Both the position numbers and the translations under genes were made by a program. A DNA stretch of 64,000 nucleotides from Fodinibius sp. Rm-B-1B1-1 (GTDB lineage Bacteria > Bacteroidota > Rhodothermia > Balneolales > Balneolaceae). The notes beneath the pieces were generated by a model. The model saw only the letters and a list, made by a program, of their open reading frames with translations, was not told the origin of the DNA and searched no databases. The stretch spans positions 682,001 through 746,000 of the forward strand of contig NZ_JBCFYD010000002.1 in NCBI RefSeq assembly GCF_038594945.1, read 5' to 3'. Of this stretch, positions 11,445-43,036 are shown piece by piece. Each line of letters opens with the position of its first letter. Position 1 is the first letter of the stretch.

Positions 11445-11460
11445 TGGAACAATGGTTGTA
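11445..11460 (+). promoter_or_regulatory. Candidate sigma-54-like -24/-12 element (weaker)
   Basis: TGGAAC-N5-TTGTA has the correct GG-to-G spacing for a -24/-12 promoter but has A instead of C at the fourth -24 position. It is the weakest of the seven elements. A transcript would begin near 11471, giving a leader of about 130 nt before the LRR lipoprotein gene. Confidence 0.45.
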
Positions 11461-11541
11461 GGTTTGGGTATCAACTTCTTGTAATGGTTACCCCTAAATT
11501 ATTGTAATCATTATGTTTAAATGTCATCTATAGACGGCTTT

Positions 11542-11565
11542 CCAGAAGGTTACCCCACCTTCTGG
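11542..11565 (+). other. Leader hairpin upstream of the LRR lipoprotein gene
   Basis: A perfect 9-bp stem (CCAGAAGGT paired with ACCTTCTGG) surrounds the 6-nt loop TACCCC, and GGCCC follows. There is no T-run, so it is not a standard intrinsic terminator. It ends 37 nt before the ATG of the lipoprotein gene, inside the predicted 5' leader, and could influence stability or translation. Confidence 0.6.
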
Positions 11566-11602
11566 GCCCTCTCTACAAACCCCAAAAAGACTCATATTTA
11601 CC

Positions 11603-14188
11603 ATGAGATCAAAGATTCTATATCTCATAACGAGTATATTTTTGCTTGTTACTTTAACTCAATGCGAAGATTCTTTAACAATAACTGCAAATCAAAATCA
11701 AGACAACAATTTAGCCGAAGTTAGTTTAGCTTCCCCTGAAGATGGGTCCGATCAAAGTACTGCTGTATCTTTTGATTGGAGTCAACTCGAAGAAGCCGAT
11801 TCTTATGAATTCCAGCTCTCGGGAAATTCAGAATTCTCTTCTATAATAATAGATAGTTTAACAGAAGAAAATAGTTTCCAAGTTAAGGGACTCCCTTCTG
11901 ATACCATATTGTATTGGCAGGTTCGTCCTGTTATTGATGGTGAAGAAGGACCCTGGTCAGCAACATGGCAGTTTTTCACTCAGTCAACCTCAGAAGATTC
12001 TGAACCTTTGGCAACGGATTTAACCTCACCAAGTGACGGAGCATCTAAAAGTCCTTACTCAGTTAAATTTTCGTGGACTGCAATAGCGAGTGCTTCCGCC
12101 TATAACGTACAGGTAGCATCTGACCAAGAGTTTAGCTCTTTGATTATAGATAAAGAGGTGACGTCAAGTTCCTATGAAACTACTGATTTATCTGCAGAGC
12201 AGACCTTCTATTGGAAGGTTGAACCCGTTGTTTCTGGCAAAGAAACCCAATGGTCCGATGTATTTCAATTTTCTACACTTGCCGAGGGTGAAATTCCAGC
12301 TCCTGCACAACTATCTCCGAATGACGGAGCTACTGATGTTGCATTGCAACCTACTTTCGAATGGGAAGAAGTGGATGGTGCCGATTATTATATCCTGCAT
12401 GCCAACAGTATAGATCCTACAGAAATGGTGGTAGAAACGGAAGTGGAAGGAACAACCTTTACTCCAGAAAGTGATTTAGCTACACAAACAGATCACGACT
12501 GGAGAGTTCGAGCCGTTATCGGTGATACGCAGGGCGAATGGTCAGAAATTCACAGCTTTACTACTGGATCAGGAGGAAGCGATGATTCCAATGATTCATC
12601 TGTTTCATTGAATTCCCCATCTGATGGTTCCAGCTATCAATCTACCAACTTGACATTAGATTGGGAAACAGTATCAGGGGCAAATGAGTACCAAGTACAG
12701 GTTGCACAAGATAATTCATTTTCTTCTCCTGAAGTTGATACATACGTTAGTGAATCCTCTTACTCGGCATCTGGGCTGAATTATAATCAGACGTATTATT
12801 GGAGAGTTCAAGTGGATGGAGATGGCGATTCCCAAAATTGGTCTGCCATATATAGCTTTACAACTGAATCCGAATCCAGTAATAATGATAGCGGAGACTA
12901 TGCAAATTCTGTAGAAGGAGATCGCCAGGCGCTGATGGACTTATATGAAGCGACGGGCGGCACAGGCTGGCACAACGACAGTGGTTGGGGTAGTGGAAAT
13001 CCCGACAACAGCTGGCACGGTATTGAGGTTGACGGCCAGGGACGAGTTGTGGAAGTCAACTTGCGTAGCAATGGTCTGCAGGGGGAGCTCCCGGAAAGCC
13101 TTGGAAACCTTACAAAGGTTACTTATTTCAATGTAAAGCAGAACCGGTTGTCAGGAACGCTTCCGTGGAATGGAATTGGGAATATGACCAGTCTGCAATA
13201 TTTGCTATTAAATGGTCGAACGGTTGATCCAAGGCCTAATGAGGCTTATCACCATCCTGGGAAAGATCTGAGTGGAAGTTATTCTGACGAGAGAACGAAT
13301 GATTTTACTGGATCAATGGGAGCCCAGGTTGGAAACTTGTCAAATTTGATCCATTTAGAATTGATGGGAGTGAATTCTGATCATACGGGATTAACAGGTC
13401 CTATTCCAAAGGAGATAGGGAAACTAACTAAACTTGAAGGGCTATTTTTGAGTTACAATAGTTTTGATTCTCTACCCACGTCAATGAGTAATCTGACTAA
13501 TTTATATCAATTTGGCATTATCGAAAGTAAGTTAACTGGAGAGTTGCCTTCTTGGATAGCAAATTGGACAAAGTTGAAATATTTACTAATTGAAGACAAC
13601 GGTTTCTCTGGTTCAATTCCTGATCTAAGCAATTTATCTGATTTGCAAGCCTTTATTGCTAAAAAGAATGCATTTACCGGTGAAATCCCCAGGTATTTTT
13701 TCGATGGTACGATGCCAAAAATTAACATGGTTGACTTAGGTTTTAACGAACTGACAGGAACTCTGCCAGAATTTGGGACGCCCAATAATCTAAAGGCTTT
13801 ACAGTTAGATGGTAATCAGTTAACGGGCAAGGTGCCAGAGTCGGTAAAAAATATAGATAGTATCAAGAACTTTGGATTGGGATGGAATAATTTAGAAGGG
13901 CAGATTCCTGACTTATCCAATCTACACCAGCTTCGGTATCTGCGAGCCAATGACAACAATTTTACTGGGGCTCCCCCGATGGTGGATACATCAAATGGAG
14001 ATTTACAGTTCTTAGATTTTCGTGGCAACGAGTTGTCTGATCAGGTTGATGCTGATTTGGCCGAAGTTGGTAATCTACCAAAGTTCCGAGACTTGGATTT
14101 GAGAGCAAATTCATTATCAGATTCTGATTTAGATCCACTTATAAATGCACTTGAGGCGGATGGCAATCTGAATGTGCTAAGTTATTAA
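11603..14188 (+). CDS. Surface lipoprotein with four FN3-like domains and an LRR domain (copy B)
   Basis: This 861-residue protein begins with a lipoprotein signal peptide (LVTLTQC lipobox, Cys at about 21). Four FN3-like repeats of about 90 residues follow, each starting near an SPxDG motif and ending in a YWxV...W...FxT pattern (roughly 40-125, 135-225, 230-320, 335-420). The plant-like LRR domain covers about 440-861. The LRR part carries the 1.1-kb DNA repeat shared with 9837-11195. The protein is expected to be anchored in the outer membrane with an extended stalk that presents the LRR. It forms a single-gene unit with a candidate sigma-54-like element upstream and a strong terminator downstream. 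Confidence 0.85.
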   Translation: MRSKILYLITSIFLLVTLTQCEDSLTITANQNQDNNLAEVSLASPEDGSDQSTAVSFDWSQLEEADSYEFQLSGNSEFSSIIIDSLTEENSFQVKGLPSDTILYWQVRPVIDGEEGPWSATWQFFTQSTSEDSEPLATDLTSPSDGASKSPYSVKFSWTAIASASAYNVQVASDQEFSSLIIDKEVTSSSYETTDLSAEQTFYWKVEPVVSGKETQWSDVFQFSTLAEGEIPAPAQLSPNDGATDVALQPTFEWEEVDGADYYILHANSIDPTEMVVETEVEGTTFTPESDLATQTDHDWRVRAVIGDTQGEWSEIHSFTTGSGGSDDSNDSSVSLNSPSDGSSYQSTNLTLDWETVSGANEYQVQVAQDNSFSSPEVDTYVSESSYSASGLNYNQTYYWRVQVDGDGDSQNWSAIYSFTTESESSNNDSGDYANSVEGDRQALMDLYEATGGTGWHNDSGWGSGNPDNSWHGIEVDGQGRVVEVNLRSNGLQGELPESLGNLTKVTYFNVKQNRLSGTLPWNGIGNMTSLQYLLLNGRTVDPRPNEAYHHPGKDLSGSYSDERTNDFTGSMGAQVGNLSNLIHLELMGVNSDHTGLTGPIPKEIGKLTKLEGLFLSYNSFDSLPTSMSNLTNLYQFGIIESKLTGELPSWIANWTKLKYLLIEDNGFSGSIPDLSNLSDLQAFIAKKNAFTGEIPRYFFDGTMPKINMVDLGFNELTGTLPEFGTPNNLKALQLDGNQLTGKVPESVKNIDSIKNFGLGWNNLEGQIPDLSNLHQLRYLRANDNNFTGAPPMVDTSNGDLQFLDFRGNELSDQVDADLAEVGNLPKFRDLDLRANSLSDSDLDPLINALEADGNLNVLSY
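12912..14010 (+). repeat. 1.1-kb direct repeat, copy B
   Basis: This is the partner of 9919-11017 at an offset of 2993 bp. It lies wholly inside the LRR part of the lipoprotein gene. One mismatch was seen (12925) and the boundary of identity at 14010/14011 is abrupt. Confidence 0.95.
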
Positions 14189-14246: not shown

Positions 14247-14322
14247 TTTTAGACCATTTCTTACAATTCTTTTCGAGGGCTTCAGTGTAACTTTTACACA
14301 TACTCGTCGGATTAGAAAAAAT

Positions 14323-14448: not shown

Positions 14449-14464
14449 TGGCACAACTATTGTA
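14449..14464 (+). promoter_or_regulatory. Sigma-54-like -24/-12 promoter for the 14550-22869 operon
   Basis: TGGCAC-N5-TTGTA is a perfect -24 box with correct spacing. The -12 box has T where the consensus has C. The surrounding 29 bases (14447-14475), including the predicted start near 14475, differ at only three positions from 26601-26629 in front of the PglF-like gene. The leader would be about 75 nt. Confidence 0.75.
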
Positions 14465-14549: not shown

Positions 14550-15233
14550 ATGAGTACAAATAAAAAGTTGGTTGTGATTTGGTGTTTGGTTGCATCGATC
14601 ATGTTTATGGCTTGTGAAAATCCTTTAACGGGCAACAAAGATGACAGAAAACCTGATCTGGGTGAATCCCTTACTCCAATTGAAGAAATGAGTTTGATTG
14701 AAGGGGCAGAGAGTGCAACGTTGACTATCAATATAAATGGGGCAAAGAAGGCTTATTTTAATATCGAATTCTCCAATATTGGATCTAATAAAATTATTGA
14801 TAATGAGTTAAAAGATGGTTGGTGTATTGATGTTTGGAAATCTATAGACAGCAATGATGGAGTATATACGAATATCAAGTTGTACTCTACTCATCTTGTT
14901 GAACAATGGAAACCGGTAAACTATTTGCTTAATGTCCAGCAGGCGTTAAGAAATAATGATCCCCAAATAACATGGCTGGAAATCCAACTGGTTATTTGGT
15001 CATTACGGGCCTATCCCGAATTTGATCTGGAAACTACCTCTATAGAAAACTTGCCCGGACAGTTTCGGAAAGATGGGAAAGCTTTATTCAGTTATGAGAA
15101 GGTATATGAAATCCTGGATTTTGTTGAAGCAAATTATAAGAGCTTCAACTTTGATCAAAATGGGGCAAAGTTTGCCGTGGTAGCTGAAATGCCGATTGAT
15201 GTTCAAACTGTTATTACTATCGCCGAAAAATAA
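14550..15233 (+). CDS. Small lipoprotein resembling a Cys-Gln thioester domain
   Basis: This 227-residue protein has a lipoprotein signal (FMAC lipobox, Cys at about 25). I do not recognise a named family with certainty. The mature part contains GWCIDVWKSI (Cys near 93), then VNYLLN, then LEIQLVIWSL (Gln near 150). This arrangement resembles thioester-domain surface proteins, in which a Cys and a Gln of a TQxxIW-type motif form an internal thioester. In that family the bond captures amines on target surfaces. It is the first gene of a sigma-54-like operon and is followed 5 bp later by a GT4 gene, so it is co-expressed with glycan synthesis. The thioester assignment is a hypothesis. Confidence 0.55.
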   Translation: MSTNKKLVVIWCLVASIMFMACENPLTGNKDDRKPDLGESLTPIEEMSLIEGAESATLTININGAKKAYFNIEFSNIGSNKIIDNELKDGWCIDVWKSIDSNDGVYTNIKLYSTHLVEQWKPVNYLLNVQQALRNNDPQITWLEIQLVIWSLRAYPEFDLETTSIENLPGQFRKDGKALFSYEKVYEILDFVEANYKSFNFDQNGAKFAVVAEMPIDVQTVITIAEK

Positions 15234-15238
15234 TCAGC

Positions 15239-16351
15239 ATGCAGAAAATATGTCTTGTTATCCATTCGCTGGGTATCGGGGGGATGGAAAGGGTTATGGC
15301 TGAGCTTGCAAATAATTTTTCAGCACGAGAAGATGTTCAGGTTCATATTATTTTGATAGGTAGAAAACGCGAGGTAGCTTATCAGATTTCAGAATTGGTT
15401 ACCATTCATAAACCAAATTTTAGATTTCAGAATAAGCGGCGTCATCTTGATACCCTTCGTACGATTGTTTTTTTACGGACAACGGTTAAACGAATTAATC
15501 CTGATACGGTGCTAAGTTTTGGGGAACTGTGGAATAATTTGGTTCTCATTGCCTTGAAGGGATTGGATGTTCCTATTTATATATCTGATCGAAGTCAGCC
15601 CGATAAAAATCTTGGTCAATTACATAATTATCTTCGCCGACAATTGTATCCAAAAGCGGAGGGATATATTGCACAGACCGAAAAGGCCCGAGAAATTTGT
15701 TTAACAAATGGATGGAATACGAATGTTGAAGTGATCGGGAATCCGATAAGAAGTATTAAGAGAGAGCATGCAATTCAAAAAGACAATATTGTTCTGTCTG
15801 TCGGCCGGTTAATTGACACTAAACATTTCGATCAGCTTATAAAAATATTTGTAGAGGTTGCTCCCCCAGGTTGGAGATTAATGATTGTAGGTGGAGATGC
15901 GAAGAAGCAGAATATATCCAGCCAGCTTTACAGCTTGGTTAAAGAATTAAATGCTGACGGACAAGTACAGCTCGAAGGAGAACAATCTGATATTCACCGA
16001 TATTATAACAGGAGTAAAATATTTGCTTTTACTTCCAGTTCAGAGGGGTTCCCCAATGTCATAGGAGAAGCGCTCTCGGCTGGCCTGCCGGTTGTTGCTT
16101 ATGACTGTATAGCAGGACCTTCAGAAATGATAGTAGATAATAAAAATGGATTTCTTGTTCCCCTCTTTGATCAGGAAAAATTTAAACGAAAGCTAAAACA
16201 GTTGATGAATGATGAGCAACTAAGAAATCAAATGAGTGAAAAATGTGCTGAATCTATAAGTCATTTAAATTCGAGTGATACTGCTGATCGTTTTTTCAGC
16301 TTTATCACGATAAATAATCATCATTACACTCCTGTGAGGGTGGGTATATGA
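15239..16351 (+). CDS. Family 4 glycosyltransferase
   Basis: This 370-residue GT-B enzyme opens with LVIHSLGIGGMERVMAELA, the GT4 glycine-rich acceptor loop. The C-terminal half has the donor-site EGFPNVIGEALSAGLPVVAYD segment with the ExxxxxxxE pattern (about residues 274-294). It should be a retaining transferase acting on the lipid-linked oligosaccharide at the cytoplasmic face. It overlaps the next gene by 4 bp (ATGA) and follows the thioester-like lipoprotein by 5 bp. Confidence 0.9.
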   Translation: MQKICLVIHSLGIGGMERVMAELANNFSAREDVQVHIILIGRKREVAYQISELVTIHKPNFRFQNKRRHLDTLRTIVFLRTTVKRINPDTVLSFGELWNNLVLIALKGLDVPIYISDRSQPDKNLGQLHNYLRRQLYPKAEGYIAQTEKAREICLTNGWNTNVEVIGNPIRSIKREHAIQKDNIVLSVGRLIDTKHFDQLIKIFVEVAPPGWRLMIVGGDAKKQNISSQLYSLVKELNADGQVQLEGEQSDIHRYYNRSKIFAFTSSSEGFPNVIGEALSAGLPVVAYDCIAGPSEMIVDNKNGFLVPLFDQEKFKRKLKQLMNDEQLRNQMSEKCAESISHLNSSDTADRFFSFITINNHHYTPVRVGI

Positions 16352-18615
16352 AAATTCTCATAAATACTGCCAGCACGTATAAGGGAGGAGGCGTACAGGT
16401 TGCCCAATCATTTTTAGAAGAGTGTCAACAGTTCAGGGATCATGAATACCATGTCGTTTTAGGAGAGATGATTGCTGAACTTATCGATACAAATCGTTAC
16501 CCATCGAATTTCTTTTTTTATAAGATAGGTTACCGGCCCGCAACACGGGTTTTGGGATTCAAATCGCAAAGTGAGTTCTTCGAAAAGTTAGAACAAAAAG
16601 TTAATCCTGATGTGGTATTTACCACCTCGGGACCGGCTTATTGGCGTCCTCATGCACCGCATGTTGTAGGATATAATTTGCCGCATTATGTGTATAAAGA
16701 TTCTCCCTTTTTTAATCAGATATCATTTTGGAAGAAAAAAAAGTGGGCCTTGAAGGGAGCAATCGTCACACATTTCTTTAAAAAAGAAGCTGATGCATAT
16801 GTCGTTCAGACTGATGACGTTAATGAACGATTACAGCCCATTGTAAAAAGTCATCGGGTGTATACAGTATCAAACACCTATAATCAGCACTATGAGCATC
16901 CCCGAAAATTTGGCGATAAGCTTCATCGCCAGAGTGACCAAGAATTTCGCTTTTTGATTTTATCAGCATGGCATGCCCATAAAAATCTGGAAATAATTCC
17001 CACCGTAATTAAAGCCTTACCTGAAGCGGTGAGAGAGCGTGTTCGATTTGTGGTGACCCTTCCAGAGGAGGATTTTAAAAGGAGTTTTTCTGATAAGTTA
17101 GGAGAACATATTATCAATGTTGGACCTATCCGGCCCGAGGAGGGGCCATCGCTGTATAAAGAGTGTGATGCGCTATTTCTACCAACATTGCTCGAATGTT
17201 TTTCTGCAACCTATGCTGAGGCGATGAAGATGGGAAAGCCAATCATAACGTCTGACTTAGGCTTTGCGCATACCGTTTGTGGTGATGCTGCCTTATATGC
17301 TGATCCGGTAAATCCCAATGAATGGGCAGCCCGAATTATACAGTTGATAAATGATTCCGATCTCAGACAAACATTAATACAGAATGGTAGAGAAGAACAA
17401 AAGAAGTTTTTGTCTGCCAGACAGCGGGCTGAACGGTATCTCGATATTTGCCGAAAGGTTGTCAAAGCTGATCGGAATAAGGACCGAAAAATTGTAGTTG
17501 TTAATCAGGCCGTCAACTATTTGACGGTAGGTTTGTGTAACGCTTTTACCGAGGAGTTTGGGCAGGTAGATTTGATAACGGGTAGCATTCATGAGCAAGG
17601 GGAATCACTAAAAAAATCTGTTAGGGTTACGAAGATGAATACATGGGTAGATCGTCCCAGCTGGAAAAAGATGCTTTCTTATGTATGGGGATGCTTGAGG
17701 ATCTATACGTTATTACTTACGCGGTACCGAAAACACGATGTGTTTTTCATGTCGTTGCCACCAATGGCCTACCTGTTATCCATAGTTCTTCCTAACCGCT
17801 GCAGTATGCTTATTTGGGATGTTTATCCCGATGTATTTAAGATTACAGGGATGACAGAGACTAACCTTTTATATAAAACGTGGGCTAAGCTGAACAAGAT
17901 AGCGTTCAAGAAGGCCCACCGGGTGTATACTATTGGTGTTAAAATGGCCGAATTGTTAGCTAATTATGTGGATCGAGAGAAAATTCAAATTACGCCTATT
18001 TGGTCCATTTTTCAGTCTAATGGGAAGGTTGAAAAAGAAAATAATCCCTTTGTTTTGGCTCAACAGCTGCAAGATAAGTTTGTTGTACAGTACTCCGGAA
18101 ATATTGGGTTGACCCATAATGTGGAAACGATGATAGCGTTGGCCGAAAAGATGAAAGATCATGATGATATTTTGTTTCAGATTATTGGTCGGGGGACGCG
18201 CGTACCTCATTTAAAAGCATTAGTAAAAGAGAAAAATTTACTCAACTGCCAGTTTTTGCCCTTCCAGTCTGATGAAATGTTTCCATATTCTCTTTCGGCA
18301 GCTGACATTGGTGTTGTTATCCTTGATGAAGCCACTTCAAAGGGCAGTGTGCCCAGCAAGTCGTATAACCTTATGAGCTATGGTATCCCAGCGTTATATA
18401 TCGCAGGGGAAGATTCTGAGCTCTATGACTACGCCGTGAAGTATCAGCATGCAAAATGTGTGAGTAGTTCAAACTTGCAAGAGGCTGCCAATTTTATTCT
18501 TTCGCTTAAATCAGACTGTAATTTAAGGGAGAAATATGCCCAAAATGCGGTCAAAGCGTCTCAAAATTATCGTCGCTCTAACGCTGATAAAATTGTCGAA
18601 TACTATTTGGCATGA
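16348..18615 (+). CDS. Fusion of two GT4-type glycosyltransferases
   Basis: This 755-residue protein is about twice the usual GT4 length. Residues 1 to about 375 form one GT-B enzyme (KGGGVQVAQSF loop, donor site LECFSATYAEAMKMGKPII). Residues from about 380 form a second (IVVVNQAVNYLTVGL start, then QYSGNIGLTHNVETMI and SKGSVPSKSYNLMSYGIPALYI). The second half resembles WbuB/WcaI-like transferases. The fusion probably adds two sugars in succession. It overlaps the preceding GT4 by 4 bp. No frameshift or internal stop is present. Confidence 0.85.
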   Translation: MKILINTASTYKGGGVQVAQSFLEECQQFRDHEYHVVLGEMIAELIDTNRYPSNFFFYKIGYRPATRVLGFKSQSEFFEKLEQKVNPDVVFTTSGPAYWRPHAPHVVGYNLPHYVYKDSPFFNQISFWKKKKWALKGAIVTHFFKKEADAYVVQTDDVNERLQPIVKSHRVYTVSNTYNQHYEHPRKFGDKLHRQSDQEFRFLILSAWHAHKNLEIIPTVIKALPEAVRERVRFVVTLPEEDFKRSFSDKLGEHIINVGPIRPEEGPSLYKECDALFLPTLLECFSATYAEAMKMGKPIITSDLGFAHTVCGDAALYADPVNPNEWAARIIQLINDSDLRQTLIQNGREEQKKFLSARQRAERYLDICRKVVKADRNKDRKIVVVNQAVNYLTVGLCNAFTEEFGQVDLITGSIHEQGESLKKSVRVTKMNTWVDRPSWKKMLSYVWGCLRIYTLLLTRYRKHDVFFMSLPPMAYLLSIVLPNRCSMLIWDVYPDVFKITGMTETNLLYKTWAKLNKIAFKKAHRVYTIGVKMAELLANYVDREKIQITPIWSIFQSNGKVEKENNPFVLAQQLQDKFVVQYSGNIGLTHNVETMIALAEKMKDHDDILFQIIGRGTRVPHLKALVKEKNLLNCQFLPFQSDEMFPYSLSAADIGVVILDEATSKGSVPSKSYNLMSYGIPALYIAGEDSELYDYAVKYQHAKCVSSSNLQEAANFILSLKSDCNLREKYAQNAVKASQNYRRSNADKIVEYYLA

Positions 18616-18677
18616 AATTAGCTATTAGTAATAAGGTTGATTGATCAGACCATGAGGATATATCTAAATCTAAAACA

Positions 18678-19814
18678 ATGACTATTCAAGCTCTAAAAAC
18701 ATACTCAATCCTAAATGCCAAAAACGTAGTTGGGTGGCGTACAGATAGAAAGATCGTCGTTTTTTCAGTGGATGATTATGGGAATGTACGGGTTGATTCG
18801 AAGGCTGCTCGTCAACGGATGAACCAACATGGGTTAAAGGTTTATAATCGTTTTGATGCTTACGATACGCTTGAAACCAGAGAAGATATTGAGGTTTTAT
18901 TTGAAACGCTGATGAGTGTAACAGATTCCAATGGTCGTAACGCTGTATTTACTCCTTTTGCAGTGCCATGTAATATCAATTTCGAAAAAATGGCAGCAAA
19001 CGGGTATCAAAAATATGAGTATGAATTGCTTCCTCAGACTTTTAGTAAATTGTCATCCCAACAACCAGAGGCGTATGATGGGGCGTGGGAATTAATTCAA
19101 GAAGGAATCACAGAAAAAATATTTCTTCCGCAATTTCATGGAAGAGAGCATTTGAACCTGAAGATCTTTGAAGAGAAATTAGCTTCTAACGACAATGAGA
19201 TTCTTACTGCACTTAAAAATCGTTCGTACACCAGTATTTCTGCAAAAAACTACGAGACAATTACACCATCTGCAGCATTTGAATTTTGGGATGTAAAGGA
19301 AAATGATCGATTTAAGGATGTGATTTGTGATGGTTTGCGAGCATTTAAGGATGTTTTTGGTTATCCGGCTGTGCATTTTAATCCGCCGGGTGGACGAGAG
19401 CATCCCGTTATACATAAAGCCTTGTACGATAATGGGATTAAATATCTTGATACGCCTCTGCTAAAGAACGAGCATCAAGGAAAGGGGGATTACAGGACGG
19501 TTTTTAACTATACCGGAAAGCAAAATACGTGGGGACAAATTTACTTGGTTAGGAATGTTGTTTTTGAGCCCACTGATGATCGAGGTTTGGATTGGGTCGG
19601 ATATGCGATGAAACAGATAGAGACAGCATTTCGGTGGAATCGTCCGGCCATAATAAGCTCACATCGCGTAAATTTTTGTGGTCACATCGATGAACAAAAT
19701 AGGGCTATAGGTATTACAGCATTACAAGAATTGCTTGATCGTATTATTGCAAGATGGCCAGAGGTAGAGTTTTTATCAGCGAATGAACTTGGGGAAACTA
19801 TTGAAGTTACATAA
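18678..19814 (+). CDS. CE4-like polysaccharide deacetylase-related protein (copy 2)
   Basis: This 378-residue paralog of 6560-7681 shares GWRTDRKIVV near the N-terminus, VDDYG at residues 31-35 (the metal-site DD pair), HGREH at 154-158 and the C-terminal SSHRVNFCGHIDEQNR region. Like copy 1 it has no signal peptide. The two copies differ throughout, so they are old paralogs and may act on different sugars of the same repeat unit. It lies 62 bp after the double GT4 and 15 bp before the CapK-like gene. Deacetylase activity is inferred from motif spacing. Confidence 0.65.
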   Translation: MTIQALKTYSILNAKNVVGWRTDRKIVVFSVDDYGNVRVDSKAARQRMNQHGLKVYNRFDAYDTLETREDIEVLFETLMSVTDSNGRNAVFTPFAVPCNINFEKMAANGYQKYEYELLPQTFSKLSSQQPEAYDGAWELIQEGITEKIFLPQFHGREHLNLKIFEEKLASNDNEILTALKNRSYTSISAKNYETITPSAAFEFWDVKENDRFKDVICDGLRAFKDVFGYPAVHFNPPGGREHPVIHKALYDNGIKYLDTPLLKNEHQGKGDYRTVFNYTGKQNTWGQIYLVRNVVFEPTDDRGLDWVGYAMKQIETAFRWNRPAIISSHRVNFCGHIDEQNRAIGITALQELLDRIIARWPEVEFLSANELGETIEVT

Positions 19815-35627: not shown

Positions 35628-36947
35628 GTGAGTACATCTATGATTATTACGGATAAAAAGTTGGAAATGCTTGAAAAAGCTGATACTCCTATTAAGGTAG
35701 GTATTGTTGGGGCTGGTTTTTTTGCTCGTGGGGTTGCTTTGCAGTTTGTGTCTGCAGCTGTTGGAATGCGTTTGGTTGCTATTGCAAATCGAACACCAGA
35801 AAATGCAATTCGGCTTTGTGATGAAGTGGGTATCGATGATGTGGTAGAAGTAGAATCACAGATAGTGTTGGATGCAGCTATACAGCATGGCAAAACCTGT
35901 GTGACGAACAACCCATTTTTGTTATGTAAGTCTGATAGAATTGATGTAATCATCGAGGCAACGGGAAATATATCTTTTGGGGCTCAGGTTGTTCTTTCTG
36001 CTATTGAGCATCGAAAACATGTGATTGTAAATGCGGAACTTGACGGTACGGTGGGTCCCATTTTAAAAATATATGCCGATAAAGCTGGCGTTATTTTTAC
36101 TGATATTGATGGCGATCAACCGGGGGTAATTATGAATCTCTATCGGTTCATCAAAGGAGTGGGGATTAAACCAGTGCTGTGTGGGAACATTAAGGGGTTG
36201 CATGATCCGTACCGAAATCCACAAACGCAAAAAGAGTTTGCAAATAAATGGGGACAAAATGCAGCTATGGTCACGTCCTTTGCTGATGGCAGTAAAATTT
36301 CATTTGAACAGGCGGTGATTGCTAATGCTACGGAAATGAAAGTGGCAAAAAGGGGTATGTATGGGCCAACTGTTGATGCCGGTACTGCTATAACAGAAGC
36401 TATAAAATCGTACCCTGATGAAGCGTTTACTTTCGAAGCCGGAATTGTTGACTATATAGTAGGCGCCGAGCCAGGGCCAGGCATTTTCATCGTAGGAACT
36501 TGCGATCACCCTTTGCAGCAGCATTATTTAAAGCTTTATAAGCTGGGCGATGGTCCGTTTTACTGTTTTTATACTCCTTTTCACTTATGTCATTTCGAAG
36601 TACCCAATACTGTTGCCCGGGCAATGTTATTTAACGATGCCACCATTGCACCTGTATCTGCTCCACAGGTAGAAGTAGTGGCAGTGGCTAAGAGAGATCT
36701 AAAAGCTGGCCAAAAGATTGATGGAATTGGATTCTATATGACTTATGGGATGTGTGAAAACTCGGAAGTTGTTACCGAAGAGCAGTTATTGCCATTAGGG
36801 GCTGCCGAAGATTGCATATTGAAACGGGATGTTAATAAAGACGAGGTGTTGTGTTATCAAGACGTGGAGCTGCCTGAAGGTCGGTTAATAGATCAGTTGT
36901 TAGCGGAACAGCGATCCTTTTTTTCTAAGAACATGGCAATTGAATAA
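35628..36947 (+). CDS. NAD(P)-dependent oxidoreductase with SAF domain
   Basis: This 439-residue protein starts at GTG. An N-terminal Rossmann domain (VGIVGAGFFARG, about residues 24-35) is followed by a homoserine-dehydrogenase-like catalytic part. A C-terminal SAF domain (AVAKRDLKAGQKIDGIG, about 350-366) resembles those of sialic-acid synthases and antifreeze proteins. The family is found in sugar-biosynthesis clusters but its reaction is not established to my knowledge. Neighbours are LhgO-like and a nucleotidyltransferase gene 2 bp downstream. It probably makes an unusual sugar or acid for a CDP-activated building block. Confidence 0.75.
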   Translation: MSTSMIITDKKLEMLEKADTPIKVGIVGAGFFARGVALQFVSAAVGMRLVAIANRTPENAIRLCDEVGIDDVVEVESQIVLDAAIQHGKTCVTNNPFLLCKSDRIDVIIEATGNISFGAQVVLSAIEHRKHVIVNAELDGTVGPILKIYADKAGVIFTDIDGDQPGVIMNLYRFIKGVGIKPVLCGNIKGLHDPYRNPQTQKEFANKWGQNAAMVTSFADGSKISFEQAVIANATEMKVAKRGMYGPTVDAGTAITEAIKSYPDEAFTFEAGIVDYIVGAEPGPGIFIVGTCDHPLQQHYLKLYKLGDGPFYCFYTPFHLCHFEVPNTVARAMLFNDATIAPVSAPQVEVVAVAKRDLKAGQKIDGIGFYMTYGMCENSEVVTEEQLLPLGAAEDCILKRDVNKDEVLCYQDVELPEGRLIDQLLAEQRSFFSKNMAIE

Positions 36948-36949
36948 CT

Positions 36950-37720
36950 ATGTGTGCATCATTGCCTGTAGTCGGGTTGATTCCAGCAGCCGGATTTGCC
37001 CGGCGTATTTCATCACAAATTTCAGTAAGCAAAGAGGTATTCCCGGTAATGTTAGCGGATGGATACCGTAAACCGGTAGCCTCATTTTTGATTGACAGTT
37101 TTCAAAAAGCTGGCACTGATAAAGCTTATGTGATATTAAGAGAGGGTAAATGGGATATTCCTGAGACGTTAGCAAATGATAAAGCTATTGAACTACCATT
37201 AGCTTATATTGTCACTGGATCTACGAGTGGAGTGCCCTTTACCCTGGATAAAAGTTATGGATTTATAAAAGATAGCATAGTATTCCTGGGTTTTCCTGAT
37301 ATTATATTTAGGCCTGTTGATGCATTTCAACAATTACTCCAAAAGCAGGAGAGAACCGATGCTGACCTGGTTTTGGGACTCTTCAAAACCCAGAAGCCAC
37401 ACAAGGCAGACATGGTTTCGTTGGATGGCAAAAATGAGTTGCAGGATATTGTCATTAAACCTGAACAAACATCCCTTTCTTATACATGGATCATTGCACT
37501 TTGGACGCCTGCCTTTACGGAATTTCTCCATGATTTTCTTTCCGCAAATGTGTCCCCTAAAGGTCAACAAGAGTTACATATTGGAGAAGTTGTAAGAGCA
37601 GCTATTCATTCAAAAATGAAGACCTCATATGTAACATTTGATTCTGGATCTTTCCTTGATATTGGAACACCTGAAGAGCTTAGTACTATACGAGATCAAA
37701 GCTGGATGGATGTTTTTTAG
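36950..37720 (+). CDS. Sugar-phosphate nucleotidyltransferase
   Basis: This 256-residue protein begins GLIPAAGFARRI, a nucleotidyltransferase P-loop in which the usual GxGTR is changed to GFARR. It continues with SKEVFPV in place of the KPM/KQL segment. LGFPDIIF fits the metal-binding strand and SFLDIGTPEEL is typical of the C-terminal part of RmlA/GlmU-like enzymes. It is divergent, so donor and product are uncertain. It follows the SAF-domain gene by 2 bp and ends the operon. Its presence beside rfbF suggests two activated sugars are made by this module. Confidence 0.75.
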   Translation: MCASLPVVGLIPAAGFARRISSQISVSKEVFPVMLADGYRKPVASFLIDSFQKAGTDKAYVILREGKWDIPETLANDKAIELPLAYIVTGSTSGVPFTLDKSYGFIKDSIVFLGFPDIIFRPVDAFQQLLQKQERTDADLVLGLFKTQKPHKADMVSLDGKNELQDIVIKPEQTSLSYTWIIALWTPAFTEFLHDFLSANVSPKGQQELHIGEVVRAAIHSKMKTSYVTFDSGSFLDIGTPEELSTIRDQSWMDVF

Positions 37721-37798: not shown

Positions 37799-37813
37799 GA
37801 GTAATTATTACTC
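37799..37813 (+). promoter_or_regulatory. Candidate enhancer-binding-protein site (perfect palindrome)
   Basis: GAGTAAT-T-ATTACTC is a perfect inverted repeat with 7-bp arms and the best representative of the site family in this locus. Its centre is about 164 bp upstream of the -24 GG at 37970. Confidence 0.7.
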
Positions 37814-37968: not shown

Positions 37969-37984
37969 TGGCATGACAATTGTA
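37969..37984 (+). promoter_or_regulatory. Sigma-54-like -24/-12 promoter for the dTDP-amino-sugar operon
   Basis: TGGCAT-N5-TTGTA with correct spacing. The predicted start near 37995 gives a leader of about 120 nt before the NeuD-like gene. Confidence 0.7.
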
Positions 37985-38117
37985 TATAAGAAAAGAGGAA
38001 GGTTTCAGATTATGAGGCAGTTCCATTTAATGATCAGGTAAATTACGAGAGTCATTTATGCTGAGTGGTTTATTGGGGTAATACGTTGGTTTTAATTTGA
38101 TAAAAAGAGGGATCTCT

Positions 38118-38837
38118 ATGAAAAAGTTATTGATATATGGATGCGGTTATCCGTCTATTACAAGTTTGGTTAAATATTTAAATATGAGAGGAGAAGAGTG
38201 GCAAATAGCGGGGTATCTGGATGACAGCCTTTTTGGAGAAGAGGTTAGTTATCATGGTTATCCCATTATTGGTGATGAGACTTCGATTTCCGCTTTTGTT
38301 GAACAGGGATATTATTTTTTCAATAACGTGGCTTCATCGACTGATAAAATGGAAGCGGTGGCTAAAAAAATTGATCGTCATAATGCTAAAATTTGCACGC
38401 TTATCTTTCCTGAACCACCGGATATCGATTTGGATACCATTACTGTTGGAGCCGGTTCTATCATTTCTCCACAAGTTATTGTCGGAGCCGGCGTCCATTT
38501 CGGAAAAAATGTAATTGTCCGTCAGCAATCAATTGTTAGTCACAACTGCGACATCGGGGATTACTGTTTTATAGGTCCTAATGTTGGAATTATGGGCAAT
38601 GTAAATATTGGGGATAAGACATTTATTGGCGCAAAAGCGCTGATCAGAAATAATGTTAGCATCGGGAAAAATTGTGTGGTGGGAATGGGAGCTGTTGTAA
38701 CTAAAGATGTGCCAGATAATACGACTGTTATTGGCAATCCGGCTAAGCCCATTAATCACCTCAATGGAAATGGTAAAAAGCATTCTAAAGATGTGGTCGA
38801 GAATGTATCGAAAACGTTATTTATCACCAACAGCTAA
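38118..38837 (+). CDS. NeuD/PglD-like sugar acyltransferase
   Basis: Started at the ATG at 38118 (AGAGGG site upstream; a TTG at 38097 is in frame but weaker) the protein has 239 residues. An N-terminal nucleotide-sugar-binding Rossmann domain (LLIYGCGYP) is followed by hexapeptide repeats of a left-handed beta-helix (from about residue 105). The likely catalytic His is in VSHNCDIGDYC. The gene leads the operon with WecF-, RmlA- and WecE-like genes. It may N-acetylate dTDP-Fuc4N in place of WecD, or act as PglD on the UDP-4-amino sugar. Confidence 0.8.
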   Translation: MKKLLIYGCGYPSITSLVKYLNMRGEEWQIAGYLDDSLFGEEVSYHGYPIIGDETSISAFVEQGYYFFNNVASSTDKMEAVAKKIDRHNAKICTLIFPEPPDIDLDTITVGAGSIISPQVIVGAGVHFGKNVIVRQQSIVSHNCDIGDYCFIGPNVGIMGNVNIGDKTFIGAKALIRNNVSIGKNCVVGMGAVVTKDVPDNTTVIGNPAKPINHLNGNGKKHSKDVVENVSKTLFITNS

Positions 38838-38842
38838 TACCA

Positions 38843-39544
38843 GTGAGCAAAACAATAGCTATATCGCAATCCAATTATATTCCCTGGAAAGGTTATTTCG
38901 ATTTCATTGCAGAGGTCGATGAGTTTGTTCTCTACGACGAAGTGCAGTATACCACTCGGGATTGGCGGAATCGGAATCGTATTAAAACTCCTCAGGGGCC
39001 AAAATGGCTTACTATACCGGTCCACGGAAGTCAAAGTGATAGTATTGATGAAGTTGACATTGCTGATAATGACTGGAATGAAAAGCATTGGCAAATACTT
39101 CGGCATATATACAATCAAGCTCCATTTTTTAGTTATTGGGAACGGGACATTTTACGACTGTATGAGCAGGCGACATTCAGTCGGTTAAGTGAGATCAATC
39201 GTCATTTCCTTGTTGGTATTACTAAGCTATTAGGGATTAAAACTTCTTTTAGCTGGAGTACGGATTATAATGCAAGAGGTGATAGAACTGAACGATTGAT
39301 ATCAATTTGTAAACAGGCGAATGCTGATGTTTATGTTTCGGGTCCGGCAGCCAAAGCATATTTAGATGTAGGATTATTCAACAAAGAGGGCATTACCGTA
39401 CAATGGATGAATTATGAGGACTATAAAGAGTATCCTCAATTGTATGGGGAGTTTGACCATACCGTTTCAATACTTGATTTATTGTTCAATACTGGTCCCC
39501 AAGCGCTTGATTACCTAAAAACAGCTATACAAGTAGAAATATGA
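38843..39544 (+). CDS. WbqC-family protein
   Basis: This 233-residue protein starts at GTG, 5 bp after the acyltransferase. The opening (ISQSNYIPWKGYFDFI) and the DEVQYTTRDWRNRN block are the hallmarks of the WbqC family, common in O-antigen and amino-sugar loci. The function is not established; a role in N-acylation or amino-sugar assembly has been proposed from context. It overlaps the WecF-like gene by 4 bp, so these genes are probably translated together. Confidence 0.85.
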   Translation: MSKTIAISQSNYIPWKGYFDFIAEVDEFVLYDEVQYTTRDWRNRNRIKTPQGPKWLTIPVHGSQSDSIDEVDIADNDWNEKHWQILRHIYNQAPFFSYWERDILRLYEQATFSRLSEINRHFLVGITKLLGIKTSFSWSTDYNARGDRTERLISICKQANADVYVSGPAAKAYLDVGLFNKEGITVQWMNYEDYKEYPQLYGEFDHTVSILDLLFNTGPQALDYLKTAIQVEI

Positions 39545-40740
39545 GCAACGGTGAGATACTGCATATTACCAAGGACGAAAAATTCATCGACGGTGCGTAC
39601 TACTTATTTGAGAAAGCATTTCCCAACCGAAATCGATTTGTTGTGCTTAAGCCACCGGCCGATCCGCCGATTCGCTATCTAAATAAAAAATTAGTTGCTA
39701 AAGCAGAATTTAAGATTATATCGCGATCTACTATTAAGCAGCTTGCTGACCGGAGTTCAGAATACTCAGTTACGGTATTACATGGACTTAATAATGAACA
39801 TGCTCTTATCTACTCTTCGGCTGTTTTTAAAGATCGTTTTATGGGGATTATCCACGGAGGAGAGATCTATAACAGTGGTTTGATGGATATAGTGTTAATG
39901 GGAGATGAGACAAAAAAATTGTATCAAAACACCTCTCAAACAACGTTTATTGAACGAGCAAAGAATCTTCTTCGAAAAATTAAATACCGTAATCATAAAT
40001 ATCCCAAGCAGGTTGATTTATTACACATTTTGTATCAAATGCAGGTGTTTGGGTCGTTGCCAGGGATATCATATCAGAAATACATTAACGAAAAAATATA
40101 TAACCCATTTGTACAGCATATTCCTTTCAGCTACTATCCCATTGATTTTATTATCAGTGACAAAGATTTAAGGGTACAGGGAAAAGACATCCTGCTGGGA
40201 AATTCAGCTTCTGCAACGAATAATCATTTGGAAGCTTTTGAACTTCTGTCATCAATTAATCTGGGGGATAGAAAAATTATTACCCCTTTAAGCTATGGGT
40301 CTGAAAAATATGCCAAAGCTATTGTGGATGAAGGACAAAAACTGTTTGGTGATCAGTTTGTGCCTCTAAATAAGTTTCTTCCGATTGATGAATATAATCG
40401 GGTGATAAGTCATTGTGGTATTGTGATAATGAACCATTATCGTCCACAGGCGATGGGAAATATTATTGCTGCACTGTATATGGGCGCAAAGGTTTTCTTA
40501 AACACTACTAATGTATACGAATATTTTAAGGGATTAGGGTGCCATATCTTTTTAATTGATGAAGATTTAACATCCCAAAAGAAACCATTCGAACTCCTAT
40601 CAAGTAATCAGGTGATGCATAATCGAGCTGTATTAGAGGAGTTGTTAAGTACAGCTGTTTTAGTGGAAGAAATGCGAAAAGCGTTTAAAGATATTTTTGA
40701 TTATAACAATACGTTAAACCAGCAAGAGGTGGCATTATGA
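39541..40740 (+). CDS. WecF-like 4-acetamido-4,6-dideoxyhexose transferase (GT56-type)
   Basis: This 399-residue protein resembles the Fuc4NAc transferase family. It shows the IHGGEIYN segment (about residues 101-108), [16 protein letters not shown] in the middle and [14 protein letters not shown] near residue 300, as in WecF. In enterobacteria WecF transfers Fuc4NAc from dTDP-Fuc4NAc to the lipid-linked disaccharide of common antigen. Its neighbours RmlA and WecE make that donor, which supports the assignment. It overlaps rmlA by 4 bp. The acceptor here is unknown. Confidence 0.75.
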
Positions 40741-41681
40741 AGAAAATGATGAGGGGGGTAAGCAAGGGCATTATTTTAGCAGGGGGCTCAGGTACTCGTT
40801 TATATCCGGTCACAAAGGGAATATCAAAGCAGTTAATGCCTATTTATGACAAGCCGATGATCTATTACCCGCTGTCTGTACTGATGCTGGCTGGAATTCG
40901 AGATATTTTAATTATAACGACGCCCGAAGATAAAGCCAGTTTTGAGCGATTGCTCGGGGATGGTTATGAATGGGGCATCCATATTCGATACGAAGTTCAA
41001 CCGCGTCCCGAAGGATTGGCTCAGGCGTTCCTTATTGGTGAAGAATTTATCGGCAATAGCAACGTATGTTTAATATTGGGAGATAACATCTTTTATGGTC
41101 ACGGATTTCGTCCGCTGCTCGAAGATGTAGTGGATGATTTTTCGGGTGCACGGATTTTTGGCTATCGCGTTAGTGATCCGCAACGGTTTGGTGTTGTAGA
41201 AGTGGATAAGTTTGACCGCATACTCAGTATCGAAGAGAAGCCGAAGGTTCCCAAAAGTAATATTGCGATAACAGGACTTTACTTTTATGACCATCAGGTG
41301 GTGGATTTTGCGAAGCAGGTGAGGCCATCGGAGCGGGGAGAGCTTGAAATAACATCCATCAATAAAATGTATTTAGAGCAAGGTGAGTTGCGTGCTGAAG
41401 TATTGGGACGGGGTTTTGCCTGGCTTGATACTGGAACACATACAGCTATGCAGGAAGCCTCACAATTTGTTGAGATTATTGAAAAACGACAGGGATTGAA
41501 AATATCATGTCCCGAAGAAATAGCATGGCGCAGAAAGTGGATTAATGATAGTGATTTACTGGGATTAGCCAGTGATATGTGTAAGAATGGGTACGGAGAG
41601 TATCTGAAGTCGTTATTGATTAATGATGACAGAAATAAATGGCAACAAAATGAAGCGTATCCAGCTGTAGAAATGGTATAG
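40737..41681 (+). CDS. rfbA: Glucose-1-phosphate thymidylyltransferase
   Basis: This 314-residue enzyme has the signature [16 protein letters not shown], then [25 protein letters not shown] and WLDTGTH. It makes dTDP-glucose from dTTP and glucose-1-phosphate. It is about 20 residues longer than typical RmlA because of a short C-terminal tail. rmlB, needed for the 4-keto-6-deoxy intermediate, is not in the window. A good AGAGGTGG site precedes the ATG. It is part of the operon that continues into the WecE-like gene. Confidence 0.95.
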
Positions 41682-41716
41682 GGTTAGCAAGACAAAAGAA
41701 TAAAGGGAGAATAGCT

Positions 41717-42904
41717 ATGATTCCATTTAATAAGCCATATTTGACAGGCAAAGAGATGCATTATATGTACCAAGCGGTATATTCGGGCAAGATTTCGGGT
41801 AATGGAATTTATACCAAGAAATGTCAGAGCTTTTTTGAAGATCGCTATGATCTTAAAAAGGCTTTGTTGACTACCTCATGTACAGATGCATTGGAAATGT
41901 GTGCTTTGCTAATTGGTATAAAGCCTGGTGATGAAATTATAGTACCGTCTTATACTTTTGTATCAACGGCACTGGCATTTGTTCGACAGGGAGCCAAAAT
42001 TGTTTTTGCTGATAGTAGAGGTGACCATCCCGGGATAGCTGAGGAATGTTTGGAATCGCTTATCACATCAAAAACAAAAGCTATTGTACCCGTCCATTAT
42101 GCTGGGGTGGCCTGTGATATGGATAAAATAATGGATCTGGCCGATCAATATAATCTAATCGTGATAGAAGATGCCGCACAGGCTATAGAATCGACTTATA
42201 AAGAGAAGCCATTAGGTAGTATAGGGCATTTGGCGGCCTTTTCATTTCATGAGACTAAAAATATTATCTCGGGCGAAGGAGGGTTGCTGGCAATAAATGA
42301 TGAACGCTTTGTTGGGAGAGCAGAGATTATTTGGGAGAAGGGGACAAACAGAGCTGAATTTTTCAGGGGAGAAGTAAATAAGTATGAATGGAAAGATACA
42401 GGTTCTTCATTTTTGCCATCAGATATGACGGCAGCATTCTTGTGGGCTCAGTTAGAGAATATCGAAGATATCCAAAAGCGGAGAAGATCAGTATGGCTTC
42501 GTTATCATAAGGAACTACGTTCATGGGCAGACTATAATAATATCCGCCAACCAATTGTTCCATTTTATGCCAGCAATAATGCTCACATGTACTATTTGTG
42601 TTTCCAGAGGGAGGCTGATAGGCAGCTTGTTATTGACCGCTTGAAATTACTGGAGATACACACAGTGTCTCACTATTTGAGCCTCTATAACAGTACCTAT
42701 TGCAAGCAGCAGGGATATGATACTGATCAGGAACTGCCTATGAGCGATTATTATTCGGATTGTTTGCTACGATTACCGTTATACTTCGAGCTTGAGGATA
42801 CTGAACAAGAGAAGGTTATAAAGGCATTAACAGCTATCAACCTTAAGAAAGAGACAATCATAACGGATAGAAAACATCAGAAGTTAGTAGCTAAGTCGAC
42901 ATAG
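41717..42904 (+). CDS. rffA: dTDP-4-amino-4,6-dideoxygalactose transaminase (WecE/RffA-like)
   Basis: This 395-residue PLP-dependent sugar aminotransferase has VIEDAAQAIEST and the lysine K181 in FHETKNIISGEGG, the exact WecE/RffA context. It converts dTDP-4-keto-6-deoxyglucose to dTDP-Fuc4N using glutamate. With RmlA, the NeuD-like acyltransferase and the WecF-like transferase it completes most of a dTDP-Fuc4NAc route. The C-terminal extension of about 15 basic residues is not unusual. A GGGAG site lies 9 bases before the ATG. It is the last gene of the operon. Confidence 0.9.
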   Translation: MIPFNKPYLTGKEMHYMYQAVYSGKISGNGIYTKKCQSFFEDRYDLKKALLTTSCTDALEMCALLIGIKPGDEIIVPSYTFVSTALAFVRQGAKIVFADSRGDHPGIAEECLESLITSKTKAIVPVHYAGVACDMDKIMDLADQYNLIVIEDAAQAIESTYKEKPLGSIGHLAAFSFHETKNIISGEGGLLAINDERFVGRAEIIWEKGTNRAEFFRGEVNKYEWKDTGSSFLPSDMTAAFLWAQLENIEDIQKRRRSVWLRYHKELRSWADYNNIRQPIVPFYASNNAHMYYLCFQREADRQLVIDRLKLLEIHTVSHYLSLYNSTYCKQQGYDTDQELPMSDYYSDCLLRLPLYFELEDTEQEKVIKALTAINLKKETIITDRKHQKLVAKST

Positions 42905-42911
42905 ATAGGGG

Positions 42912-42926
42912 GAGTAAAATTTACTC
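42912..42926 (+). promoter_or_regulatory. Candidate enhancer-binding-protein site (perfect palindrome)
   Basis: GAGTAAA-A-TTTACTC is a perfect 7-bp-arm inverted repeat starting 8 bp after the rffA stop. Its centre is about 103 bp upstream of the -24 GG at 43022. Confidence 0.7.
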
Positions 42927-43020
42927 ATGCCTGCATTGTGTTTGTAATTAATGCCTATACAACCAGTTGTAGCTCCCTATGAAAAGCTCTAATTGGAGTA
43001 TTAATGATCAAATAAGAAGC

Positions 43021-43036
43021 TGGCACGTTTTTTGAG
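43021..43036 (+). promoter_or_regulatory. Sigma-54-like -24/-12 promoter for the UDP-glucuronate epimerase gene
   Basis: TGGCAC-N5-TTGAG has a perfect -24 box and correct spacing with A at the consensus C position of the -12 box. The predicted start near 43047 gives a leader of about 39 nt. Confidence 0.6.

Follow-up and report, generated by a model that had tools for sequence, protein, structure and literature searches.

A predicted sigma-54 regulon in an exopolysaccharide locus of Fodinibius sp. Rm-B-1B1-1, with a candidate enhancer and a degenerate activator paralogue

Transcription units and promoter-like sites

The window analysed here is a 64-kb stretch of contig NZ_JBCFYD010000002.1 (C2) of Fodinibius sp. 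Rm-B-1B1-1, and it carries part of a polysaccharide gene cluster that extends leftward from the window as far as the gene for a putative activator. The + strand between 9.8 and 44.2 kb comprises seven units separated by gaps of at least 181 nt, and a site of the form TGGCAY-N5-TTG is present at six of the seven. The six units, their sites and the candidate enhancers (UAS) discussed below are listed here in window coordinates.

14285..14299, + strand: candidate UAS, two mismatches to GAGTAA-N3-TTACTC, centre 157 bp upstream of the 14449 site
14449..14462, + strand: sigma-54-like promoter TGGCAC-N5-TTG, then T; site before 6 of 7 homologues
14550..22869, + strand: unit with a lipoprotein-like gene, glycosyltransferases, a sugar transferase and an ATP-grasp-like gene
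24976..24990, + strand: candidate UAS, two mismatches, centre 104 bp upstream of the 25087 site
25087..25100, + strand: sigma-54-like promoter TGGCAT-N5-TTG, then T; site before 7 of 7 homologues
25166..26377, + strand: DegT/DnrJ/EryC1 aminotransferase (PglE-like in the original prediction)
26427..26441, + strand: candidate UAS, one mismatch, centre 169 bp upstream of the 26603 site
26603..26616, + strand: sigma-54-like promoter TGGCAT-N5-TTG, then T; site before 7 of 7 homologues
26642..33396, + strand: unit with a PglF-like dehydratase, a Wzz/GNVR tyrosine-kinase-like gene, a 223-aa protein and an ABC transporter
33423..33437, + strand: candidate UAS, two mismatches, centre 83 bp upstream of the 33513 site
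33513..33526, + strand: sigma-54-like promoter TGGCAC-N5-TTG, then A; site before 6 of 7 homologues
33587..37720, + strand: unit, first gene glucose-1-phosphate cytidylyltransferase (rfbF)
37799..37813, + strand: candidate UAS, exact, centre 163 bp upstream of the 37969 site
37969..37982, + strand: sigma-54-like promoter TGGCAT-N5-TTG, then T; site before 2 of 2 homologues
38097..42904, + strand: unit, first gene a NeuD/PglB-type acetyltransferase
42912..42926, + strand: candidate UAS, exact, centre 102 bp upstream of the 43021 site
43021..43034, + strand: sigma-54-like promoter TGGCAC-N5-TTG, then A; site before 6 of 6 homologues
43086..44195, + strand: NAD-dependent epimerase

The motif occurs seven times in the window, always on the + strand, as against a mean of 1.38 in shuffled sequence, and none of 100 shuffles reached seven. 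These matches are the six positions singled out in the original prediction (14449, 25087, 26603, 33513, 37969 and 43021) and one at 21890. Each of the six lies 25 to 114 nt upstream of a start codon, ahead of the first gene of a + strand unit as had been proposed, and the only overlap of the site at 37969 is with a 219-nt opposing ORF. The - strand of the window holds no match, nor does the window beyond 43.1 kb, in keeping with the earlier statement that no such element faces the opposite-strand or later genes. TGGCAY at -24 and TTG at -12, joined by a fixed N5 spacing, constitute the layout of a sigma-54 promoter, and the six exact sites very probably are such promoters. The match at 21890 was rejected as a promoter; it lies within a CDS and has no UAS with two or fewer mismatches.

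A weaker seventh element, TGGAAC-N5-TTG at 11445, had been proposed for the unit headed by an LRR gene, and this part of the prediction did not stand. A matrix built from 71 sites of relatives places exactly the 11 sites of the locus (see below) in the top ranks of 124 kb, with scores of 17.1 to 27.1; the element at 11445 scores 6.2, and scores of up to 13.9 arose in three shuffles. No UAS lies upstream of it, and no site precedes the LRR homologues in any of seven relatives, though only three of those alignments start at residue 1. With 11445 rejected, the claim that a site precedes every exopolysaccharide (EPS) unit is reduced to six of seven units.

The series continues beyond the window. 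Five further exact sites lie to its left (C2:664183, 676080, 676298, 681561 and 681819), and the region from 664 to 725 kb of C2, 1.8% of the genome, contains 11 exact, intergenic, correctly oriented sites along with three weaker candidates. Genome-wide there are 22 intergenic oriented sites, half of them in this locus (P about 3e-14), so that both the excess over shuffled sequence and the enrichment at EPS genes anticipated for a genuine promoter motif were found. The bare pattern is less discriminating: it matches 96 times in the genome versus 49 for the reversed pattern, a crude control, and its counts separate carrier from non-carrier genomes poorly. Across seven congeners, a site precedes 34 of the 36 homologues of the six in-window units. 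The site at C2:681819, before the gene at window position 21, has a counterpart before none of three homologues, and in three relatives (G039, G012 and G048) the 10-20 kb surrounding the bEBP gene lack an intergenic site.

One feature of the sites departs from the textbook form. C after TTG is the preferred base of sigma-54 promoters, not an obligatory one. All 11 locus sites and 79 of 82 sites in stretches from the genus have T or A there, rather than the TTGC of the -12 consensus given as tTGCt (PMC4641369). The original prediction had noted this at every exact site that it claimed and had suspected either a lineage preference or a warning. Elsewhere in the genome, intergenic sites read TTGC in 6 of 11 cases (7 of 12 when one site within a 261-nt ORF is counted, which a 350-nt ORF filter would admit), and the 15-mers of at least four of the six TTGC sites recur in at least one relative among the matches listed. 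Because TTGC is so frequent at those other sites, T or A is neither a lineage-wide preference, which was rejected as the sole cause, nor a sign against the sites. It is the usual form in this regulon but not in the genome at large, and it is not universal, since in relatives outside the genus TTGC apparently stands in 9 of 12 cases at the promoter that points away from the AAA operon.

The activator and a candidate enhancer

The genome encodes the components that sigma-54 promoters presuppose. There is a single copy of rpoN (one match, E 1.9e-58) with an RpoN-box-like ARRTVSKYR, and sigma-54 activators are present, one of them beside the cluster. The gene for this bEBP marks the left end of the locus, some 19 kb outside the window. 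Its product has PF00158 at residues 21-187 and HTH_8 at 292-333, and with an AAA+ domain bearing GAFTGA, a Fis-type HTH, no receiver and no N-terminal domain it belongs to the bEBPs without a regulatory domain. It falls short of the PspF equivalog TIGR02974 (277 bits, cut-off 443.55) and of the PrsR model (307 bits, cut-off 502.6).

A de novo motif search, whose discovery set included the window's own sites, yielded the palindrome GAGTAA-N3-TTACTC, centred 81 to 169 bp upstream of 10 of the 11 locus sites. With up to two mismatches allowed, it accompanies 10 of 11 cluster sites versus none of 12 sites elsewhere (Fisher 1e-5), and the dyad GTAA-N3-TTAC is found in 33 of 70 upstream stretches, where 0.31 would be expected. 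Exact copies occur in all eight genus members that have the activator and the locus, in none of four without them and in 2 of 46 other genomes; this co-occurrence cannot separate the activator from the locus, because the non-carriers also lack a close PglF-like gene. Within the genus, 26 of 82 sites have no copy with two or fewer mismatches within 250 bp. In stretches chosen after the discovery, the UAS accompanies 17 of 21 sites, nine exact copies having guided that choice. On these patterns the palindrome is a candidate enhancer, predicted to be bound by the locus activator.

The enhancer seems confined to the genus. The exact palindrome is absent from five relatives outside it (G023, G039, G040, G045 and G048), whose bEBPs are 64-68% identical, and stretches of G023, G040, G045 and G017 contain 14 intergenic sites, none of which has a copy with two or fewer mismatches. 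The dyad search likewise gave no clean UAS outside the genus, only promoter-like dyads of the divergent site. A GAATCA-N3-TTACAC-like element (three or fewer mismatches) does lie 139-153 bp upstream in 11 of 12 cases there, and is perhaps related to the UAS by descent. Helical phasing of enhancer and promoter was assessed twice, with P values of 0.001 (41 distances, up to two mismatches) and 0.06 (20 distances, up to one) in the first test and 0.006 (55 distances, one per site) and 0.09 (38 distinct distances) in the second; the periodicity is weak and suggestive only.

Taken with the shuffle excess and the sites before homologous genes, rpoN, the adjoining activator and the upstream palindrome all favour the sigma-54 interpretation. 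Chance matching in A+T-rich intergenic DNA has next to no probability: only a few bases of the core are fixed, and some of the 11 intergenic matches elsewhere in the genome may be fortuitous, but for the locus this explanation is already contradicted by the shuffles, the palindrome shared by 10 of 11 sites and the conservation before homologues. The elements could instead be operators or leader elements for another regulator, such as an antiterminator or a repressor, that resemble a -24/-12 promoter by accident. A transcribed leader element would likewise sit shortly before each unit, and the -12 box departs from TTGC throughout the locus. That said, rpoN and a bEBP at the locus edge are present, the palindrome, at 81-169 bp, lies at a distance typical of bEBP sites (100-150 bp in PMC7057263), and other parts of the genome have sites with this layout that do read TTGC, all of which makes this account very unlikely.

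We are thus left with high confidence that the elements are RpoN promoters of one regulon with the locus activator, and judging from sequence patterns there are, with similar confidence, 11 well-supported and three probable promoters over 61 kb of the exopolysaccharide locus. The bEBP would bind GAGTAA-N3-TTACTC, in some places at two copies spaced 23 bp apart, and loop to the waiting sigma-54 polymerase, whose complex it would open by hydrolysing ATP; the units would then be transcribed together.

A degenerate AAA+ paralogue of the activator

A second AAA+ protein may belong to the same circuit. Of 128 genomes from the order, 22 encode a degenerate paralogue of the bEBP (E 1e-110 or better). 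It is 266-286 aa long, and in all 22 GAFTGA, the Walker-B Glu and both arginine fingers are gone, so that it lacks what a functional activator needs; the Walker-A Lys is retained in 21 of 22, as is most of the sensor-II stretch. By alignment, and by Pfam on one member, the HTH is absent, which leaves it, like FleT, without regulatory and DNA-binding domains. PspF E108Q structures are among its fold matches and carry the same Glu-to-Gln change as its Walker B. Nine matches outside the order were checked; a GAFTGA-type motif is present in six and absent in three.

The genomic setting ties the paralogue to the promoters. In 15 of the 22 genomes it occupies third place in a conserved operon, headed by a site in 15 of 15; in the seven others (G000, G002, G004, G010, G001, G007 and G011) it immediately follows a site of its own, in several of them near the bEBP. 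Named relatives with the system include Fodinibius roseus, F. sediminis, F. salsisoli and Aliifodinibius salipaludis. An intact bEBP is found in 18 of the 22 genomes. Paralogous bEBP loci in three relatives (G002b, G004b and G011_C18) have two intergenic sites in total, and the stretches examined there hold no degenerate partner and no UAS at the sites.

Three roles can be weighed. Most plausible, though tentative, is that the paralogue, with its ATP-binding lysine kept and its catalytic, loop and HTH parts lost, would enter the activator ring as a subunit without catalytic activity and damp the activator, so that the regulon would produce its own negative feedback. Alternatively, it might resemble FleT and assist the activator or redirect it, through promoter choice or ring stability. 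FleT likewise lacks regulatory and DNA-binding domains, needs FleQ and RpoN2 for its expression and assembles into hetero-oligomers with FleQ (PMC11999139), and the retained Walker A and most of the sensor-II stretch would suit such a role; but the uniform loss of GAFTGA, Walker-B Glu and fingers has no parallel in what that paper's account of FleT mentions, and a helping role is somewhat unlikely. Rather unlikely, too, is that the paralogue has left transcription control to work with the export proteins of its own operon. It does follow two other genes there, which in the two operons inspected appear to encode a Wza-like lipoprotein and a barrel protein of the outer membrane, and no such short bEBP was found in 4 of the 22 genomes. 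Against this stand the genomes where it sits directly behind its own site and the bEBP kept in most carriers.

The damping role admits a more specific and still tentative form, in which a Walker-B E-to-Q, finger-less, loop-less AAA+ protein, made from the activator's promoter type in or beside an export operon, acts as a poison subunit. Balneolales would possibly have turned a duplicate of the activator into this dedicated subunit, whose entry into the ring caps EPS transcription.

Relation to known systems

Several known systems share features with this one. PspF and HrpR/HrpS consist of AAA+ plus HTH and are controlled in trans by PspA and HrpV (PMC7057263); the locus bEBP also lacks a regulatory domain in cis, but its candidate trans partner is its own degenerate paralogue, and a single activator seems to act on 11-14 promoters within one locus. 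FleT of Cereibacter (Rhodobacter) sphaeroides is described as the only known bEBP without both regulatory and DNA-binding domains (PMC7175178); the present paralogue differs in its further losses and in belonging to polysaccharide loci of another phylum. In Desulfovibrio vulgaris, DVU2956, a bEBP without an N-terminal domain, is divergent from a sigma-54 operon that encodes a second bEBP, DVU2960, with the altered loop GAFPGA, and only DVU2956 is reported to bind the site (PMC4641369). As here, a short bEBP is paired with a sigma-54 operon holding a second, loop-altered one, but DVU2960 has, as described there, one motif substitution, whereas the paralogue has lost loop, Walker-B Glu and fingers.

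With PrsK/PrsR, linked to PEP-CTERM/exosortase, a surface-polymer-associated gene is likewise under RpoN control and has a predicted upstream enhancer (PMC9850573), but the bEBP here has no receiver and lies well below the PrsR cut-off. A survey that casts sigma-54 as the controller of the bacterial exterior counts EPS genes among its conserved associations, as here, though the word Bacteroidetes does not appear in its main text (PMC3162934). Among the open-licence PMC papers listed in literature searches, no title or abstract opening pointed to sigma-54 with EPS in Balneolales, or to a dead bEBP partner. Sigma-54 control of EPS genes is known; the degenerate AAA+ paralogue behind such sites is new.

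The locus is laid out promoter by promoter, together with its activator, candidate enhancer and inactive paralogue, and this makes a regulon prediction testable in a little-studied order. The number of catalytic subunits that a bEBP hexamer needs has been approached with engineered mutants; if the paralogue is indeed a ring-poisoning subunit, these bacteria would provide a natural experiment on the same question.

Probable sigma-54 promoters of the exopolysaccharide cluster

The window holds seven matches to the pattern TGGCAYN5TTG, always on the + strand, against 1.38 expected from shuffles. Six of the seven lie where sigma-54-like promoters had been claimed (14449, 25087, 26603, 33513, 37969 and 43021), each indeed a short way upstream of a gene, and the remaining match is inside a CDS. 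Glycosyltransferases, nucleotide-sugar enzymes and a Wzz/tyrosine-kinase-like protein are encoded between the sites. A scan of the whole genome gave 96 matches against 49 with the reversed pattern. Sorting by a simple ORF caller left 22 that lie between genes and have a start on the same strand no more than about 225 nt away, a count that includes 37969 (covered by an opposing 219-nt ORF) and C2:681819 (C2, contig coordinates; its downstream start was seen in a separate reading of that stretch) and excludes a 23rd match inside a 261-nt ORF. Half of the 22 (P about 3e-14) fall within C2:664,183-725,034, the exopolysaccharide (EPS) cluster, a stretch that makes up 1.8% of the genome. Five of these 11 lie outside the window, among them two divergent pairs, 676080/676298 and 681561/681819, each with one site per direction.

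The sites are conserved in relatives. Among homologues of the six first genes taken from seven congeners, a site lies upstream of 34 of 36: 6/7, 7/7 and 7/7 for the lipoprotein-like, PglE-like and PglF-like genes (14449, 25087, 26603), and 6/7, 2/2 and 6/6 for rfbF and the NeuD-like and epimerase genes (33513, 37969, 43021). These 34 sites include one that ends in TTGG and another ending in TTGC. The gene at window position 21 has a site upstream of 0/3 homologues (56-58% identical).

A matrix was built from 71 sites of relatives, picked with the same core pattern, so only its free positions are informative. Its top 11 ranks in 124 kb are exactly the 11 cluster sites (17.1 to 27.1), followed by weaker candidates.

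Weaker candidate promoters of the cluster
C2:669986, TGGTACAGTTGTTGT, matrix score 15.8, directly below the 11
C2:677572, TGGTACGGCAATTGT, matrix score 14.4, next after C2:669986
C2:664480, TGGCGCGTTTGTTGC, matrix score 9.3, chance level by score

The first two score near the best of three shuffles (13.9), and the matches below them (13.3 and 13.0) are coding. All three are probable further promoters, since similar sites, found with a relaxed pattern, precede homologues in several relatives.

Two neighbouring LRR proteins are encoded at window 9837-11195 and 11603-14188. The weaker promoter proposed at 11445 for the latter was not borne out (matrix score 6.2; a site at 0/7 homologues). As the 407-nt gap upstream of this gene holds no supported sigma-54 site, the gene is probably transcribed from a different type of promoter.

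Activator and candidate enhancer

Both the sigma factor and its activators, which the original prediction had called for, are present: the genome has a single rpoN and 11 Sigma54_activat matches, six of them strong. Two activator-type genes adjoin each other at the cluster's left end (sequence stretch L044), with RNase III and ketoacyl synthase genes to their left.

L044:96-1124, + strand, short bEBP (bacterial sigma-54 activator), 342 aa, AAA+ with GAFTGA, Fis-type HTH, without receiver
L044:1277-2122, - strand, degenerate paralogue, 281 aa, AAA+ and lid only

Between these and the fcl/gmd unit, L044:3901-7752 reads as three - strand housekeeping-like genes (DnaB-like, uracil-DNA-glycosylase-like and MiaB/MtaB-like). 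Three congeners have a second short-bEBP copy at another locus (stretches L144, L146 and L139, from G002b, G004b and G011_C18), 66-68% identical to that of the window genome; neither a degenerate partner nor a site cluster was found around it in these stretches.

A dyad search of 300-bp stretches preceding 70 sites in ten genomes, the window's sites among them, found GTAA-N3-TTAC in 33 of 70 stretches against 0.31 expected. The dyad extends to GAGTAA-N3-TTACTC, a candidate enhancer (UAS). All six window sites have a copy that differs from this consensus at 0 to 2 positions and has its centre 83 to 169 bp upstream. With at most 2 mismatches the element also accompanies 29/36 homologues; at other sites of this genome, outside the cluster, it was found at 0/12. 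Across the genus stretches it lies within 250 bp of 56/82 sites, for 55 of them at 60-200 bp, and a second copy (<=4 mismatches) shows a tendency to lie 23 bp off (+23 in 11/55, -23 in 6/55). Both divergent promoter pairs have two UAS-like copies 23 bp apart between the promoters (L044:14167-14204 and L044:19678-19715), which may serve both directions.

Exact copies, counted in 58 genomes, number 2 to 4 in each of the eight genus members with the activator and a close PglF-like gene, the window genome included, and 0 in the four members without these (in one, G005, the PglF homologue is only 39%). Outside the genus, 2/46 genomes have one each. None occurs in five non-genus relatives whose bEBP is 64-68% identical, which indicates that the putative enhancer sequence, or its match to the consensus, is a genus trait.

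The base after TTG

The departure from the -12 consensus TTGC to TTGT or TTGA holds for nearly all sites in the genus stretches (T 59, A 20, C 3; n=82) and fails as a lineage-wide preference: outside the cluster, the window genome has TTGC at 6/11 intergenic sites (Fisher 0.012). At least four of these six, among the matches listed, recur as 15-mers in relatives and may belong to further sigma-54 regulons in the genus.

L050:1521, L077:1529, L084:3634 and L008:1501, recurring TTGC-type sigma-54-like sites outside the cluster

The departure thus goes with the predicted EPS regulon. In relatives beyond the genus, TTGC seems to be kept at the promoter that points away from the AAA operon. PMC7057263 places the PspF L1/L2 loops in contact with DNA near -12, a lead only for the altered base.

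A conserved, degenerate AAA+ paralogue

With a threshold of E 1e-110, the paralogue is found in 22/128 genomes of the order, spread over six genera and two families (three weaker matches, 1e-41 to 1e-50, were left uncounted); carriers include Aliifodinibius salipaludis, Fodinibius roseus, F. sediminis and F. salsisoli. By residue counts that exclude the G014, G017 and G070 proteins, GAFTGA is lost in 22/22, the Walker-B Glu is Gln in 19 and Lys in 3, R175 is Trp in 22/22 and R181 is lost in 22/22 (we take these to be the two arginine fingers of PspF), while the Walker-A Lys is kept in 21/22. At 266-286 aa the protein has no room for an HTH. Its AlphaFold model (mean pLDDT 76.9, pTM 0.60) matches bEBP AAA+ domains, including PspF E108Q. 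Two Bdellovibrio-group MAG proteins (L211 and L213, 313-320 aa) are bEBP-like without a GAFTGA-type motif and have an HTH-like stretch at the end.

In seven carriers a site lies about 75-345 nt upstream of the paralogue (some distances extrapolated). In all 15 others the paralogue comes last in a row of three genes on one strand, and a site lies 1.76-1.84 kb upstream of it, at the first gene of the operon or immediately ahead of that gene, with T or A after TTG in 15/15; in G009 and G040 the first two genes read as coding for a lipoprotein resembling Wza and an outer-membrane barrel. The short bEBP accompanies the paralogue in 18/22 carriers and was not found in G057, G085 (98% complete), G086 and G100.

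The EPS promoters and short bEBP would work as in the known bEBP cycle (PMC7057263 and PMC7175178), and the cluster sites are very likely sigma-54 promoters driven by the bEBP. That the paralogue would brake the bEBP, as the residues lost and kept suggest, is a more tentative proposal, with a chance approaching even. A sigma-54-controlled EPS locus would by itself belong to a known kind (PMC3162934); the present system differs in having a conserved, apparently inactive activator partner, and this partner is its new feature.
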